Below the pieces are notes generated by a model that saw only the letters and a list, made by a program, of their open reading frames with translations, was not told the origin of the DNA and did not search any database. The position numbers and the translations under genes are program-made. Below are positions 579-8,778 of a stretch of DNA of 32,832 nucleotides, piece by piece (the first letter of the stretch is position 1; each line of letters starts with the position of its first letter). Source of the stretch: Cyanodermella asteris (taxonomy: Eukaryota; Ascomycota; Lecanoromycetes; Ostropales; Stictidaceae); assembly GCA_900618795.1 (NCBI GenBank), contig UYJD01000006.1, forward strand, positions 1,317,466 through 1,350,297. Direction: 5' to 3'.

Positions 579-1334
579 TCACATGCTTAACTTGCCCACT
601 CGCGGCCAAATGCAATCTGAATACCAGCTTGTCACCTGCTCAATCAGCAACTCCGACCCGTTGTCAGTCTTGATTGCATGTTCCATCAGATGCGAGCAAT
701 GTACAGAGTGCTTAAGAGTCATCGGGTCGGGCAACGGAGTTCCTTCCACATAACTCTGGTGCACAACGTTCCAGACGAACATGCAGTGCTTGTAGTGAAA
801 CCGCCGGTCAACCCAGACCGTGGCGTGCCACTGGAGCACTTCCGGATCATCCGGAAGCTCCTGCGTCCGCTCGGCGTCGGCCCACCAACGTATGGGCTTG
901 TCGACTTCGGTTTCACGCATCCTCAGCCAGTGCTCGTCGGACAGGGATTTGTAGTAGCACTCAGGCCCTAACCAGGCATAGGTCATGGAGTCAAACACGC
1001 AGCCAAGGGCGTAGGCTTCCTCGGGACTTGTGCCACAACGGCCAGATTGACCTGGAGCAGTGGCGATCGTGTCAGGATGCTTGAGGGCATGCGAATCTCC
1101 TTCCGACGGAGTTTGAGATCGAAAGTTGCGCAGGGTCTGGATCAGGACTGTCGTTGCGAGAATGGCGATGATGCCCCAGGTGACCAGATCTTGTAGAACT
1201 GGCGAACGATATCTGCGTGCTTTCTTGGCTGGCGTACCGACGCTCTCGTCGTCGAGGGACTCGGTGTCGATTGAGCTTAGCAGCGAGAACTGGCTCGGAT
1301 CTGGTCGTTTCTCGATCTCATAGCGGGCAGTCAT
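579..1334 (-). CDS. UstYa/DUF3328-like membrane oxidase-type protein
   Basis: Single-exon gene of 251 residues starting at an ATG. Visible parts: an N-terminal cytosolic tail of about 48 residues with a basic KKARRYR patch; one membrane segment at about 50-68 (VTWGIIAILATTVLIQ); then a lumenal domain with CGTSPEEAYALGCVFD and two HXXHC motifs, HYKHC and HSVHC. Paired HXXHC motifs are the hallmark of the UstYa family, whose members oxidise or cyclise ribosomal peptides in the ustiloxin, phomopsin and asperipin pathways. The CGTSPEEA...GCVFD block marks a divergent fungal subfamily whose chemistry is, to my knowledge, unassigned. The gene is transcribed away from a Kex2-repeat precursor gene starting at 2685, which supports a role in modifying that peptide (inference). 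Membership of the broad family is fairly sure; the substrate is not. Confidence 0.78.
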   Translation of the reverse strand: MTARYEIEKRPDPSQFSLLSSIDTESLDDESVGTPAKKARRYRSPVLQDLVTWGIIAILATTVLIQTLRNFRSQTPSEGDSHALKHPDTIATAPGQSGRCGTSPEEAYALGCVFDSMTYAWLGPECYYKSLSDEHWLRMRETEVDKPIRWWADAERTQELPDDPEVLQWHATVWVDRRFHYKHCMFVWNVVHQSYVEGTPLPDPMTLKHSVHCSHLMEHAIKTDNGSELLIEQVTSWYSDCIWPRVGKLSM

Positions 1335-1838
1335 GGTGCTGCAATTGATGGAGACCTGATGTCAGGCTGAATAACGAGACGGTCTCTCGGCTGCGAAAGT
1401 TTCGAGGGCCAGCTGCAAAAGCTTCTTGTATACTTTGAGGAGATCTTTGTGAAAGAACAACCGCAGAGAGAAGGGGGCAGGTCATTCTCCAGTTTGAGGA
1501 CCGCGCCTGATCTTAACAAAGGCGAGCCTTGCGTCTTCCATGTGCATGGCCCCGAAATACCATCAAGGTCAGGAAAGTCCTTGACTGATATGGCCTGATG
1601 TGGCGTCAACTATCTTCGACACATCACGCCATGTTTACTGGCTGTGGATTGCGCTACCCGCACTAGCATAGCTGGTTTGTGCAGGGGTCGAAAACGGCAT
1701 TTCGCTTTCCAATACCTTGCGACCCCTTGTACTTGACTCAGACCACGTCTGAAGCCGCACAATGAGATCTTTGCTAGCTATAGGAAGCTAGCTTCATCCG
1801 GAGACGGACCGCCTTCCGTGATCCTGAACTTCATATGT

Positions 1839-1862
1839 CTCCGCCCAGACCCGCTGGCGGAG
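1839..1862. promoter_or_regulatory. Candidate Zn2Cys6 site, everted CCG-N14-CGG
   Basis: The 7-bp arms CTCCGCC (1839-1845) and GGCGGAG (1856-1862) are perfect inverted complements around a 10-bp spacer. They place CCG and CGG triplets 14 bp apart. Fungal Zn2Cys6 regulators bind such paired CGG triplets, and pathway-specific members often control small metabolite loci. No binding data are available, and a chance hairpin is possible. Confidence 0.3.
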
Positions 1863-2598
1863 CGCAAATAGTGGATCGCTGATAGCAAGGAACTCAGAAC
1901 GGTGTTATGCTGCAGTTGTCGGAAACTAGCGGTCCTGACGCACACTGAGTATGGAATCCACACTATATACCTGATGTATTTACTTGACGGTAGTGCTTGT
2001 CAGCGGCCGTCAAGCTGGGCTTGTACCGTGAAGCCGCAATGAGCATTTCGCCTATGTGATGACCCAGCAGCTCCAGTGTAGCCTGTTCACAATTGGCATA
2101 TGGCGTGTCCTTTCTCCATCGCTTCGCTAGAGCGCCCGGATGTCACAATGTGCTAGACTCAAGTACGGGAGAAGTAAGAGGCTATCTAGCGTAGGCGTCG
2201 GCTTGCAACTCCGAGTGTACTACGCTGCCGTACCACAGAGAGACTGTCCGCCATCATGTCATCACGGAAAGCCACGCTCCTTCATCGACAACGAGTACCG
2301 CTTCTAGCGTGGATGGCGAGGTCTGAGCTGGCTCCAATTGGTGGCTAGTTGGTGCGAGAGGAATCACACCATTCATGCAAGTGCCTGCATGCATCGAGCA
2401 TCGAGATGGCCTTCGCTGCTGGTTGTGAGACTGAGATGGAAGCACCTTCTGCAAGCATCAGCACGAATTAGGATCGCTGCGTAGGAGTGTGGGGAAAAGC
2501 ATCACGCAAACAGGGCTCTCTCGATTCATTGTCAGCCATCGTCTCGCTTGGATGGACGTTCGTCGGAGAGTGCTTTGTGTACCACTTCCCAAAAGTTG

Positions 2599-2606
2599 TA
2601 TATAAG
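2599..2606 (+). promoter_or_regulatory. TATA box of the repeat-precursor gene
   Basis: The sequence tatataag lies about 80 bp upstream of the ATG at 2685, a usual fungal distance. It fixes plus-strand transcription and supports the ATG at 2685 over the longer in-frame open stretch that starts near 2487. Confidence 0.6.
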
Positions 2607-2684
2607 GGTTGCCCCGTTTCCGTCTCGTTCATAGCGTTTCATTTTCACCAACAGTCCCAATTTTCATCGACCACCATCCTGATC

Positions 2685-3167
2685 ATGAAGCTCTCTTCCG
2701 CCATCGCCTGGGCCATACTTGCCTTTACGGCAGTCTCTCTGCCAACTGATCAGGCTGCCAGAGCTGTCTCAGGAAAGATCGATCGTCGCGAGCCCGAAGC
2801 AGCCGTCTCCGGAAAGATTGACCGTCGCGAGCCCGAGGCCGCCGTGTCAGGAAAGATCGACCGTCGCGCTGAATCCGGCAAGATTGATCGCCGCGCCGAG
2901 TCTGGCAAGATCGATAGACGTGCGGAATCAGGGAAGATTGATCGTCGTGCCGAGTCCGGAAAGATTGACCGTCGCGAGCCTGAAGCTGCCGTATCTGGGA
3001 AGATTGATAGACGCGCGGAATCTGGAAAGATTGACCGTCGCGCTGAGTCTGGGAAGATCGATAGACGCGCAGAATCTGGCAAGATTGATCGTCGCGAGCC
3101 TGAAGCTGCCGTGTCTGGCAAGATCGATAGACGCGCCGAGTCCGGGAAGATCGACAGACGTGCGTAG
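2685..3167 (+). CDS. Secreted Kex2-processed repeat precursor, 13 x SGKIDRR
   Basis: A 160-residue protein with a signal peptide (MKLSSAIAWAILAFTAVS) and a short pro-region. The rest, up to a terminal Ala, is a tandem array of 13 units ending in SGKIDRR. One unit follows the leader directly, four carry an EPEAAV spacer and eight an AE spacer. Each RR is a Kex2-type site, so cleavage would free AESGKID and EPEAAVSGKID peptides. EP, EA and AE spacers resemble the dipeptides trimmed by Ste13-type aminopeptidases in yeast alpha-factor. All 13 heptapeptides are identical in protein yet differ at silent codon positions (ATC/ATT, GAT/GAC, CGT/AGA), showing selection on the peptide. There is no aromatic residue in the core, unlike ustiloxin. 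It could be a RiPP precursor modified by the divergent UstYa-like protein, or a linear pheromone-like signal. Confidence 0.85.
   Translation: MKLSSAIAWAILAFTAVSLPTDQAARAVSGKIDRREPEAAVSGKIDRREPEAAVSGKIDRRAESGKIDRRAESGKIDRRAESGKIDRRAESGKIDRREPEAAVSGKIDRRAESGKIDRRAESGKIDRRAESGKIDRREPEAAVSGKIDRRAESGKIDRRA
2766..3161 (+). repeat. In-gene tandem repeat, 27-bp and 39-bp units
   Basis: Thirteen units, either 27 bp (AESGKIDRR) or 39 bp (EPEAAVSGKIDRR), with the first lacking most of its spacer. The order of spacers after the first unit is long-long, four short, long, three short, long, short. The recurring short-run-then-long pattern suggests growth by duplication of blocks rather than of single units. 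Confidence 0.9.
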
Positions 3168-4016: not shown

Positions 4017-6175
4017 TCATACCAGCAGCGTTCGCTGCCCTTGAGCCGATTTGTTGGTTCGGCTGATATGCAAACCTCTCTTCGAATTTGGACTTACCGT
4101 GGTATTTTGGATCGCGTTGAATGCCTCTAGTCCAATATTCCGTGCAGTTTGAAAGAGATTTTGCGACTGCTCATCTTCAGAGAATACGGCCACCATAGCG
4201 GTGTTCTCAAATTCGACTTTTCCCTCCGTCACTTCGACCTTGCCCAGGCAAGCCACCAAATGGTTCTGCCGTGGTCTTCTCTGTCGAAGAACTTGATGAC
4301 GGTCCAGGTTCCGTTACGAAAGGCTCCCATAGGTTTTCACCCGTCCGGCCAGGTTTTTGGTTTTCTTCTTTATGCCTCCCCAACCAGTTGCCACCACCGC
4401 CCAGTTCCAGCTTCGCGAAACTGGATAGAATTGCGAGATACGGCTGGCTCGTTGATCGCGGTCAGCCCCGACTTCCCAGGTCTGACGTGACTGTCCAGAA
4501 TGAACCCTTCCCCTCTGATGCTAAGTCCATTCGGCGTCAGAGCCCCAACGTTCTCTCGATGCCATAGTATGAACCGTCTGAATGGGCTAAGATCTGGCAA
4601 GTTATCGTCTAGGTCTTGAATCAGAGTCCTAGGCACCCATCGGTGTCCAGGGGTGTCCAGCTTGGCGGTGGTGAAGCGCCATGTTCTGAGGTAAGCCCCC
4701 TAATTCGTGGGCGATGAGCTGCCACAGCTTCACCAAACCGCGCTCAGGGTCATCTTTTCCTCCGTCCCTCAAGATATCGGCATTGTTCAAATCAAGCAAC
4801 GTGCTTATGCACAGAGGTTCGTCTGAAGGCACAGTCATCGAACGGAATTGTGACATCGTATCCAGGAACGCAAGTCCACTTTTTATTATGTTGCTAGCTC
4901 GTGTTGTCGCCAATTCATTCGATGCCCAACGCAGTCGAACGAGCAAGTCTTCATCTGTGGCATGATGCAGGACGTTGAGCTCACGACGTAGCTCATTGCT
5001 GAGTTGGTCAATCGTCACGGAGCGGTCTTCGAAGCTAGAGGACCAAGACATTCGCTAACACGTCTTCCAATGAAAAACATATGGAATCAGCACCAGTGTG
5101 GAAAGGCTTTTGCATCTTGAGCGGTTCACCTGAAGAGTCCAAAGCCTTGTAATCCAACCCGAGGTGAAAATGCGAAGAAGTACCTCATACCGTGCTATAT
5201 TCTTGATCGCGATCGATTCAAAGCTGGCATTCAGGACCAGTACGTGCGAAGCACACTCATAATCATTCCGCATCCGACCTAGTACCTTGCCCTTGGCTTC
5301 ATTATCGTGGATTGCACAGCATCATGTGTCCAGCCAGAGGCAAAATTCTTTCTCAGGCTCGATTGGCAGCTCACGCATGATCCCTAGCACGCGCCTCAAT
5401 TGGCACGTTGGTAGTGAGTTATCCTGTGGGCCACCAGGCCCGTCGGCCCGAACGTGCAACAACGTCACGTAGGCGAACGTAGCATTTGAGCCCTTCGGGC
5501 CAATTTCGATCACATCAATTCGCAAGCCATGTATCGTTTCTTTCAGCTTCAGCCCGTGAAGCTTATCCTTATGTAGGACCCTAACAACTTCATACTGGTC
5601 GCACCCAATCAGCTCGCAATCGCAGTCTCCAGTCCTGTGCTTCAGCTTGTAAGTCTTCAGATAAATCTGGTAACACTTACACAGCGGCACCGAGCATCCG
5701 GCGTGGTCCCTTCCCAGATACGATCGACTAATTCTGCTGACCACAAATCGGGCCTGTATCGACATGAACCGGTGTGCAAGCGTGCGGACCTCATTCGGGC
5801 ACACACCATTCGCCATCATCTCCTGCTCGATTTTACCTGGCGGAAAGTCCGTACTTCAAAATCGCATCTTCTTAATCGGCACGTCAGAGGGGAGCTGGGC
5901 CACCAGAACGTGCTGGACAGACCGATTGAAGATCTCGGCGATTGAGACGATTGATTACTTAATGCGCCAGTCGAATTCTGGGGAAATCAGCCCCCATGTG
6001 CCATGGACTTGCCCTGGTCTGCATAGGAGCAGGATAAAGCGAGGGAACTTGCCTTGACATCGAGCTTGAACTCGCTTAGTATGTCTCTTGTGTCGCCGTG
6101 CAGTTCAGAATCATTGCTAAGCAACCAAGCCGTACCGTACTTTTCTGGCCACATGAGGATTGGAACAGATTTTTC
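4017..6175 (-). pseudogene. Decayed HET-domain (heterokaryon incompatibility-type) gene
   Basis: Pieces of one fungal HET-family protein follow each other in the right order on the minus strand but fall in different frames. Readable landmarks are DFPPGKIEQEMM, a Cys-rich stretch (DHAGCSVPLCKCYQ), NSLPTCQLRR and FCLWLDT of the HET core, SHVLVLNASFESI, YEVLLRIFTSGWITRLWTLQ, PSDEPLCISTLLDL, DDPERGLVKLWQL and WVPRTLIQDLDD. HET proteins trigger cell death when unlike strains fuse, and this subfamily is common and fast-turning-over in ascomycetes. The reading is interrupted at several places (at least five) by stops and frame changes, and the core Trp of the usual SHVWSDG word is altered, so I call it non-functional. 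Further readable blocks at about 5955-6175 (MWPEKYGTAWLL, PRFILLLCRPGQVHGTWG) may be its 5' part or a second broken gene. Confidence 0.75.
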
Positions 6176-6604: not shown

Positions 6605-7926
6605 TCATTTCTGGATAATGACCACGTCCTTCATCCCTTTCAGCCTCGCCACCAGCTCCTTCTCATTCATGACCAGCTCCGTACAAATCTCATCAAAGCA
6701 GTGCTTTCCATCCAAAAAGTCCTCCAATTGCTTCTTACTTTCCCCCAACCCTCTCGAACTCGTCCTCTTCGCTCGGTCCTTCCGACTGACCTTCTCGCTC
6801 GGTATCGTCGTGATCGCATACTTGTGCACCCGGTACAGAATTCCCTTGACAACCCCAAAAGTGACCAGCCGCCGCACATCAACCACGCCCATGAGGTCCG
6901 CGTGGTCGAGACACCAATTCCTGAGCGCCAGACCCTGGCGCATGCTGCAGTACAACTCCACGAGCTTGACGCAGTCGACCGCGTCGGAGAGCTTCTTACC
7001 CGTCGTGGCATCGACGGTCGTAGCCGAGCTCGGCGCCAGGACGTAGCGGCGACATTCCTCCTGCAGCTCCCTGTCCCCGGTGAAGTTGCGCATGTCCGCC
7101 GTCGGAGCGTAGCTGGCGCCAAATGTGAAGACGTCCAGGAGCGTCACGACGCCGTAGTAGAGCAGATGCTCGACCGCCTTCTTGACGAGCCCGTAGTCTG
7201 CGTCCGCTTTCCGCGAGATTGTGCGGATGCTGTTCACTCCGTCCAGGAACGGCAGGATTCGCAACATGGTCAGGTCCCAGTTTGCGTCTGTGAGGTCGTC
7301 CAGTTTCACCGTCGCCAGCGGGACGTAGTGAGGCTTCAACCCCGGCGGCGGCGGATACGTGGGGAACAACTTGATGTTCAACGTGTTCCGATCGTCGATC
7401 GGGATCATCGTCTCGCAGTAGTTGTTCAGGTCCTCGAGCAGGATCTCGCAGAGCGCGTACAGGCGGCCCGTGTTGGGCGCGGACACGTCATGGCTCAGGA
7501 ACTGCGAGTCCTCTTCGAGCTGCTTGAAGAGCTCGGCGAGCTTGGAGATGACGGACGCGTACGCGGGCGTCGCCGTGCGGTGGTGCAAGACGAGGGAGAA
7601 GGAGAAGATGAACTCGTTGCGCTCGTACTTCTCGCTCGAGTACAGACAGATGGGGTGGGAGAGGACGCGGTATGGACCAACAAGGAGGCTGAGGGGCAGA
7701 GAGCAGAAAGATTGACGGGGGATGACGGTCGAGGAGATGACCGACCAGTCGACTAAAGGTGCTGGGAGGTCTTTTGAGTTCGAGGTTATGCTGTTATTGG
7801 GAACCTGATGGACGACCGTCGGACCTGTACATGTCAGCTGCGGCGCAAAAGAATGTACGGCTAGCTTGTAGAGGAGCGCAAACCAATTCGCATGTCGAAT
7901 TTGCTGTAGAATATTGCACGTATCAT
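6605..7926 (-). CDS. NPR2: Nitrogen permease regulator 2 (SEACIT/GATOR1 subunit)
   Basis: Two exons, 7884-7926 and 6605-7824, with a 59-nt intron (7825-7883) that has a GCTGACA branch site and ends in TACAG; 420 residues. Exon 1 encodes MIRAIFYSKFDMRIG and exon 2 continues PTVVHQVP, matching the NPRL2 N-terminal longin-like start. Further family words are VISSTVIPRQSFC, PYRVLSHPICLYSS, KYERNEFIFSFSLVL, DLTMLRILPFLDGVNSI and HLLYYGVVTLLDVF. Npr2 pairs with Npr3 and Iml1 in SEACIT at the vacuole and restrains TORC1 when amino acids are short. The first exon is easily missed because it codes only 14 full codons. The donor GTTTGC is weak, but frame and family fit make the model firm. Confidence 0.93.
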
Positions 7927-8778
7927 CGTCGTGTTCTACGTGGTCCTGAGGCGTTATTGGGGAAATAGACGACCGGTTTCCGCTTCGTACCCAGCGAGCA
8001 TGCGTCTAATGAGATCATGAGTTGTCGAAATGGGGGTGCATGGCGGGCGAACCGAAGTCTGGACGGGCACATTCCATCACCCAATTACACCGGTAGGTCC
8101 GTTTACACCATCAAACCTAAGTAGAGGACTACTGATAAAGCACCTGACAACATAGCTTCATTCGCATCCGCCACGGACCTAGCGAGATACGCACGAATGA
8201 GATACGGAAGGGAACCACGGAAGTACTATTCAAAGCAGGTACGCAGATTACAACCGCAGCGCCTTTTATGTGCCCGCCTTGAATGCAACGGACGGACGGC
8301 TAAGATCGTTGCAACGATCGAGGCCTTGCTCTGTGTCTACGTGATATTTGTGAAAGCTTTCGAGGAATCATTTGTGCTGACTTGACGATCAAACATAACA
8401 TCCGAGGTACAGACGATTCCCGCACAGTCAACGCTGGAGACAACTGCCCCTACAACAGGCAAGGAATGCGGCTATCATCACAATTAATGTTCTGGATTGT
8501 GTTGTCCGCACATCATTGAATTAGAAGGTAATCACGGCCTGTTCAAATGAGCCTTAGCGCATGTATGAGAAAGCGAGCAGCAATGAGAGGACAAATCACT
8601 CTCGGGCCTTGGTGCATCAGATCCAATATGGACCTCGAGCCTTCCCCAGATCGGCATATATGCCCATAATATCCCCACCATGACCAAGCAACAAACAGTG
8701 CTGATCGATCGTGCATGCCGGTCAAAAAGGCTTCGTAGTACCCGGCCAAGATTTGCAGGCCATCACTCAACATGGCCT
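7927..8778. other. Intergenic, NPR2 promoter side
   Basis: About 850 bp between the NPR2 start and the 3' end of the SRA-domain gene, both on the minus strand. It should hold the NPR2 promoter and the upstream gene's 3' UTR. A minus open stretch (8543-8818) overlaps the end of the SRA gene in another frame and shows no motif. Confidence 0.4.

Follow-up and report, generated by a model that had tools for sequence, protein, structure and literature searches.

A Kex2-type repeat precursor divergent from a UstYa-like double-HXXHC protein in Cyanodermella asteris: a candidate minimal dikaritin-like locus

Among fungal ribosomally synthesized and post-translationally modified peptides (RiPPs), the dikaritins are the described group that most closely resembles the locus discussed here. 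Ustiloxin, phomopsin and asperipin-2a, with victorin and the epichloecyclins nearby, are made from secreted precursors that carry multiple cores bounded by dibasic sites, and the precursor gene adjoins one for a membrane protein with two HXXHC motifs. A PF11807 (UstYa, DUF3328) gene defines the class at cluster level, while a tyrosinase or an S41 peptidase is not found in every dikaritin cluster (PMC12048977). A wider survey of Kex2-processed repeat proteins (KEPs) describes their cleavage by Kex2 and finds DUF3328 genes near 22% of its 7878 KEPs, the frequency peaking at the directly adjacent gene (PMC7329392). Here we analyse a stretch of 32,832 nucleotides from the lecanoromycete Cyanodermella asteris, called the window in the following (C5:1317466-1350297, C5 being contig UYJD01000006.1), from a genome of 28.5 Mb in 25 contigs. 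It holds a repeat precursor gene that diverges from a gene for a double-HXXHC membrane protein. Such a pairing is already known; the departures lie in the subfamily of the enzyme and in an aromatic-free core that ends in Ile-Asp. We read the locus as a compact, minimal dikaritin-like RiPP locus, at which the peptide A(V/E)SGKID would be oxidised by a copper enzyme of the Golgi, and we put the probability of this reading at roughly 60%.

The precursor gene is a single exon on the forward strand (2685..3167) that encodes 160 amino acids (aa) with 13 SGKIDRR units. Its N-terminus resembles a signal peptide (about residues 1-19, MKLSSAIAWAILAFTAVSL; 2685..2741), as judged from the translation and a hydrophobicity scan; the strongest hydrophobic 11-mer in that scan covers residues 7-17. 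From the first to the last SGKIDRR the array spans 2769..3161, and its 12 inter-repeat spacers read AE (8/12) or EPEAAV (4/12), the first copy being preceded by a sequence ending in QAAR-AV. A preliminary description of this DNA, made from the letters alone, had counted 13 RR-bounded SGKID repeats and had found no Tyr, Phe or Trp in the core. Both statements agree with the full translation, in which all 13 units are identical in peptide and degenerate copies are absent. The published rule for KEPs of Umemura 2020 asks for three or more repeats, each 8 aa or longer, bounded by dibasic sites (PMC7329392); the four EPEAAVSGKID units, at 11 aa, reach this length, and the eight AESGKID units, at 7 aa, stay just under it. 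That 2685..3167 encodes a KEP is, in our view, almost certain.

On the reverse strand, the membrane protein is likewise encoded by a single exon (579..1334, 251 aa). It is a UstYa-like protein and a putative binuclear copper oxidase, with a single predicted helix and the motifs HYKHC (residues 180-184, 783..797) and HSVHC (residues 209-213, 696..710), whose positions follow by arithmetic from the ATG at 1334. Between the two start codons lies a common intergenic region (1335..2684), with TATATAAGG at 2599, 86 bp 5' of the precursor ATG. The divergent arrangement of a precursor with a signal-like start and a two-HXXHC membrane protein, as described earlier, is what the locus contains, with starts 1350 bp apart.

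Does the array go beyond what chance would give? The 13 SGKIDRR units are written in 12 distinct DNA sequences with a mean nucleotide difference of 0.189 (18.9%), and every one of these differences is synonymous. The array calls for a minimum of 10 nucleotide changes, none of which alters the peptide, an outcome that under random mutation has a probability of about 9e-7; this figure, and the corresponding all-synonymous probabilities for the longer units that include AE (2e-9) or EPEAAV (4e-9), are rough estimates that assume 24.8% of random changes to be synonymous in these codons and ignore mutation bias and the relatedness of the copies. The array is strongly non-random. Because its 13 units differ in DNA, and always synonymously, the SGKID peptide is held by selection. 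The all-synonymous pattern also fixes the coding frame of the precursor, though antisense frames are open as well. For the codon comparison the units of the window array were gathered by exact motif and their completeness was checked on the full translation, while in three arrays from elsewhere in the genome (tiles L027, L037 and L042, see below) the variable positions were picked by eye, so that the figures for these are descriptive only.

A pattern coding for KIDRR matches the genome 63 times, and 13 of these matches fall inside this array; outside it, the sole pair less than 1 kb apart is on C8, with the two matches on opposite strands. In its own genome the precursor has one weak match (L022, expectation value E 0.89) and otherwise no paralogue. 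A relatives search that scored 7994 candidates gave none at E<=1, although the repetitive composition of the precursor may depress scores there. Two Pfam matches of the precursor, AbiEi_4 and Thx, were below cut-off and were rejected, and NCBIfam returned three weak matches only, far below cut-off. In the literature searched, which covered few subscription papers, there is no report of the SGKID peptide, and the string SGKID occurs only in a bacterial protein. KEP-derived peptides that regulate cell wall structure are known (PMC6339444), and the repeat protein could by analogy be a source of structural or surface peptides rather than a RiPP precursor; the short, charged and hydrophilic nature of SGKID and the adjoining oxidase-like gene make this highly improbable.

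Turning to the membrane protein, its hydrophobicity profile singles out one clear segment around residues 50-68 (best 19-mer 1.98, next non-overlapping 0.56), and the protein has six cysteines, with HYKHC at 180 and HSVHC at 209. Five relatives were found, at 42-48% identity and with 94-96% of the query aligned. Four come from named Trichoderma or Cladobotryum sources (among them TRIVIDRAFT_53560) and one from an unnamed source, and all keep both HXXHC motifs of the window protein and its Cys pattern. Three are labelled hypothetical, one is labelled uncharacterized and one carries no name, and the literature searched holds no paper on TRIVIDRAFT_53560. The patchy distribution of these relatives in the database searched is not evidence of horizontal transfer. 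A search with 11 aligned sequences, among them five paralogues from the same genome, returned the five relatives and one further protein at 26% identity over 53%. Within this alignment C100, E106, A107, C112, D115, C126 and both HXXHC motifs are invariant, and the subfamily carries an extra motif, CG....EA...GC.FD...C, besides the double HXXHC.

The preliminary description had called the protein UstYa-like and compared the locus with known ones that have UstYa-family (DUF3328) oxidases. Profile similarity and the double HXXHC speak for a link to that family, but the protein has no PF11807 match at E<=1. A genome-wide PF11807 search gave 68 matches and none at the window, so the gene that defines dikaritin clusters was not found there by that model. 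A hidden Markov model (HMM) of the subfamily, run over the open reading frames (ORFs) of the window, its flanks and the fetched tiles, places the subfamily at the top of its ranking, followed directly by PF11807 proteins (E 9.9e-5, 5.9e-4, 0.0036 and 0.005). When the subfamily was compared by hhalign with eight PF11807-type proteins of the same genome, the score was 34.9, the maximum in 297 column permutations being 19.7; both HXXHC regions are aligned, and the signal is concentrated at the motifs. Among the five paralogues scanned, two have sub-threshold PF11807 matches of their own (E 0.0069 and 0.042). By these comparisons the window protein looks like a member of a divergent sibling subfamily of UstYa that the Pfam model misses. 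Convergence at the HXXHC motifs, the alternative to descent from UstYa, keeps some residual probability because the shared signal is concentrated there. A Pfam match of the window protein to GBR2_CC was below cut-off and was rejected, NCBIfam gave no match for the three membrane proteins scanned, and sequence searches of solved structures with both alignments returned chance matches only (best E 0.22 and 0.082).

For the function of such a protein, CctR offers a comparison. In this DUF3328 hydroxylase HxxHC(x)nHxxHC forms a two-copper, O2-dependent site, and the enzyme has one helix and a luminal domain (PMC12435403). The window protein resembles CctR in described architecture: an N-terminal tail, a single transmembrane helix and an HxxHC(x)nHxxHC domain, with the topology being predicted and the copper binding putative. 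The substrate of CctR is, in contrast, a non-ribosomal cyclic peptide, and the window subfamily has its extra cysteine-containing motif. The window protein is likely a copper-dependent membrane enzyme.

The pairing of a Kex2-repeat precursor with an HXXHC protein, which the preliminary description recognised as being of a known type, recurs within the same genome. By hand grouping, the PF11807 matches form 34 loci, of which 19 were read together with the subfamily locus on C15 as 20 tiles of 8-10 kb; UstYa genes in this genome are split into exons, which together with the named relatives of the window protein fits a filamentous ascomycete. A strict scan, which required three or more nearly identical tetrapeptides with dibasic borders, gave arrays in six of the 20 tiles (L027, L030, L031, L035, L040 and L042). 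A relaxed scan added L037, with single-basic AGR sites, and L025, where two copies are complete and a third is partial, came from a tandem-repeat search with subsequent reading. Repeat precursors are hence present at 8 of the 20 UstYa-type loci examined, L025 and L037 having been added by eye and being weaker than the other six. Applied to 67.9 kb outside the UstYa loci (flanks L009-L012, L022 and the remainder of the window), the strict scan found no array; this comparison loses weight, to the detriment of our reading, through a control that is small and non-random, L022 having entered it as the weak precursor match (E 0.89) and not as a random draw, and through a UstYa sample of 19 of the 34 PF11807 loci. 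The relaxed scan skipped frames longer than 900 aa or containing masked letters. Repeats that it indicated in L022, L028, L031 (+, three frames), L033 and L039 were set aside by eye because none combines nearly identical units between dibasic sites with an N-terminus that resembles a signal. Arrays read in antisense or out of frame, including one antisense frame of the window array in the strict scan, were set aside as well. In L030, L035, L040 and L042 the repeat-bearing frame shows no start that resembles a signal.

In each of the nine pairs, the window included, a distance of 0.9-2.7 kb separates the array from the nearest HXXHC-family exon (array limits set by hand), and seven of the nine are divergent. 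The repeat contains Tyr, Phe or Trp in each of the eight other arrays and in the window array none of the three. A rival reading makes the HXXHC protein a genuine oxidase with another substrate, for example a product of genes in the left flank or of a flavin monooxygenase (FMO)-like gene, its adjacency to the KEP being coincidental. An FMO-like gene identified by Pfam (PF00743) does lie left of the window (L009:5646-7160, -), beyond a flank that is partly masked, and no KEP was detected at three of the subfamily's loci. Such a coincidence is improbable in our view, as divergent adjacency at 1.35 kb fits most other KEP/UstYa pairs of the genome and KEPs are few, with an average of 5.25 per ascomycete strain (PMC7329392). 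Ustiloxin B biosynthesis also employs FMO-like flavin monooxygenases (PMC12048977); the gene in L009 is a candidate cluster member, and further cluster genes may lie in the left flank, as the preliminary description suggested. That the precursor gene and the HXXHC gene act together is, on balance, probable.

Across the genome the subfamily has eight matches at five loci: the window on C5, one each on C15 and C6, three on C19 and two on C18. Three of the four other loci (C19, C18 and C6, not C15) also have PF11807 matches, and because PF11807 genes adjoin it there, the distribution suggests that the subfamily is an uncounted part of PF11807-type clusters. One of the four, on C18, has a KEP. This short KEP, found by tandem-repeat search, contains TNIYPGVKYEGDL repeats between KR sites (L025:3709-3942, +) and is flanked on one side by PF11807 genes and on the other by two members of the window subfamily. 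The locus on C19 (L023, C19:882500-892499) comprises three subfamily genes and two PF11807 genes with no KEP detected in 10 kb; it is possible that this cluster acts on another type of substrate.

How might the two genes of the window work together? The precursor would enter the secretory pathway, where Kex2 would cut after RR; a Kex1-type carboxypeptidase would then take off RR, and a Ste13-type aminopeptidase would strip EP and EA. Processing of this kind would leave the heptapeptides AVSGKID, in five copies when the first one after AAR is counted, and AESGKID, in eight. The membrane protein would reside in the Golgi, its HXXHC domain facing the lumen; it would bind two copper ions and oxidise the peptide at C-H bonds, either ahead of cleavage or once this has taken place. 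From processing onward, each of these steps is one that we infer. For oxidation of A(V/E)SGKID as such the odds seem about even.

As to its chemistry, phomopsin provides the precedent. Gene inactivations tie PhomYc, PhomYd and PhomYe to the dehydro-Ile, dehydro-Asp and dehydro-Pro of phomopsin (PMC10880069, PMC10512285), the core of which is YVIPID (PMC7099791), and phomopsin A contains dehydro-Ile and dehydro-Asp (PMC4282715). Like YVIPID, the window core A[V/E]SGKID ends in Ile-Asp; unlike it, the window core has no Tyr ring and has Lys instead of Pro before Ile-Asp, and the likeness to the PhomY enzymes is drawn from published descriptions. The favoured chemistry would be a desaturation of the C-terminal Ile-Asp with loss of 2 or 4 hydrogens, giving dehydro-Ile and/or dehydro-Asp, and hydroxylation would be the second choice. 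Desaturation ranks first because the core is devoid of Tyr, Phe, Trp and His and because PhomYc and PhomYd set the example on YVIPID. Oxidation specifically at Ile and/or Asp is, for all that, a tentative proposal that we hold to be doubtful.

Compared with the dikaritins, the window core offers no Tyr, Phe, Trp or His for the aromatic ether bridge, its enzyme lacks a PF11807 match, and one enzyme candidate is visible; tyrosinase (PF00264) and S41 peptidase (PF03572) have no match on contig C5 at E<=0.001, part of the left flank being masked. Several points weigh against a dikaritin-like pathway at this locus. To the missing PF11807 match is added the probability reported by hhalign for the link to UstYa, which is only 43%, and an AlphaFold2 model of the window protein with six relatives has a mean predicted local distance difference test (pLDDT) score of 45.9, too poor for use. 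No KEP was detected in the 10-kb tile at three of the four other subfamily loci. The core lacks the residues of the known aromatic cross-links, and Tyr is usual, though not universal, in the repeats of DUF3328-linked KEPs (65.6%; PMC7329392). Finally, in four of the 12 inter-repeat spacers RR is followed by EPEA, so that dipeptides of the XP and XA type come next to the Kex2 cut. These spacers look like the Ste13 signature, which one study describes as reserved in general for alpha-pheromones in Ascomycota and does not predict for ustiloxin or phomopsin (PMC6339444).

The last point leads to the strongest rival, a plain linear signal: an unmodified signalling peptide, alpha-pheromone-like or a peptide hormone, made by Kex2, Kex1 and Ste13, to which the HXXHC gene would be an incidental neighbour. 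Ascomycete alpha-pheromone precursors share with the window precursor its Kex2 repeats, and spacers in part of the window array look like their XA/XP (Ste13) sites. Among published KEPs, 6120 of 7878 have no DUF3328 neighbour (PMC7329392). Motif searches detected no canonical repeated alpha-pheromone elsewhere in the genome, so that the pheromone slot is not visibly filled: PYG[LM]P[IV]G has no match, WCxxxGQxC has five isolated matches (one in the reversed control), of which the one inspected, on C17, lies in no frame of at least 40 aa, and the broader CxxxGQxC gives 60 matches, as against 37 in the reversed control, among which inspection by eye showed no tight group. The SGKID core, however, lacks both motifs described for Dothideomycete pheromones, a pair of Cys and PYGxPxG (PMC6339444), and the spacers are mixed, with AE instead of an XA/XP site in 8/12. 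A UstYa-like neighbour would also be unusual, all but three of the pheromone or mating-factor KEPs in the survey being without a DUF3328 neighbour (PMC7329392). Moreover, Ste13 signatures occur in KEPs of Basidiomycota and Rhizophagus (PMC6339444), and in this very genome a UstYa-linked KEP (L035, on C3) carries DAEA after KR. We consider the linear signal unlikely, if well worth keeping in mind, and retain the dikaritin-like RiPP locus as the preferred reading. The interpretation given in the preliminary description is partly supported and holds in outline.

If the enzyme does act on the peptide, RiPP mining that is keyed to PF11807 or to aromatic cores misses pathways. The locus would then provide a minimal one-enzyme, one-peptide system for the choice of HXXHC enzymes among cross-linking, hydroxylation and desaturation. 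According to a 2014 review, dehydro-aspartate has no natural source other than phomopsin A (PMC4282715), and a second one would be notable. In its most far-reaching form, a UstYa sibling subfamily invisible to Pfam would on its own desaturate the Ile-Asp of an aromatic-free KEP and yield a linear dehydropeptide, which would amount to an overlooked class of fungal RiPPs; this version we regard as rather unlikely.

In the surroundings of the two genes, the ORFs at 4632-5054 and 5325-5855, right of the precursor, have no Pfam family, and the next ORF scanned is NPR2 (6608-8005), which makes a rightward extension of the cluster unlikely. Farther right in the window, a gene resembling FAD-binding monooxygenases (PF01494; 24256-25485, -) is too distant to be tied to the locus.

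The other arrays near UstYa genes differ widely in their repeats. The strict scan gave KEP-like arrays around ITAKFESYDQ (L030:7183-7512, +), APLHKNYNSDYSTE (L031:5620-6114, -), VAYPDAY (L035:5637-6059, +), APYAPAVDAWLV (L040:6062-6292, +) and DAIRDVFVAD (L042:6612-7079, +). In L035 an in-frame stop divides the array, leaving two open pieces, which may point to an intron or to a decayed gene. Two precursors near PF11807 UstYa genes were delimited by repeat scan, one with nine slightly varying copies of TLNEDAVKFAGR (L037:5434-5946, +) and one with seven copies of TDEDLAKFGRR (L027:7293-7703, +). These two look related and lie on different contigs, C5 and C11, and are perhaps duplicated RiPP loci. 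As in dikaritin clusters, S41 peptidase matches occur near PF11807 matches at two further places: on C12 (C12:856141-856317) about 6.2 kb from C12:849528-849893, and on C15 (C15:364177-364815) about 1.9 kb from C15:361891-362256.

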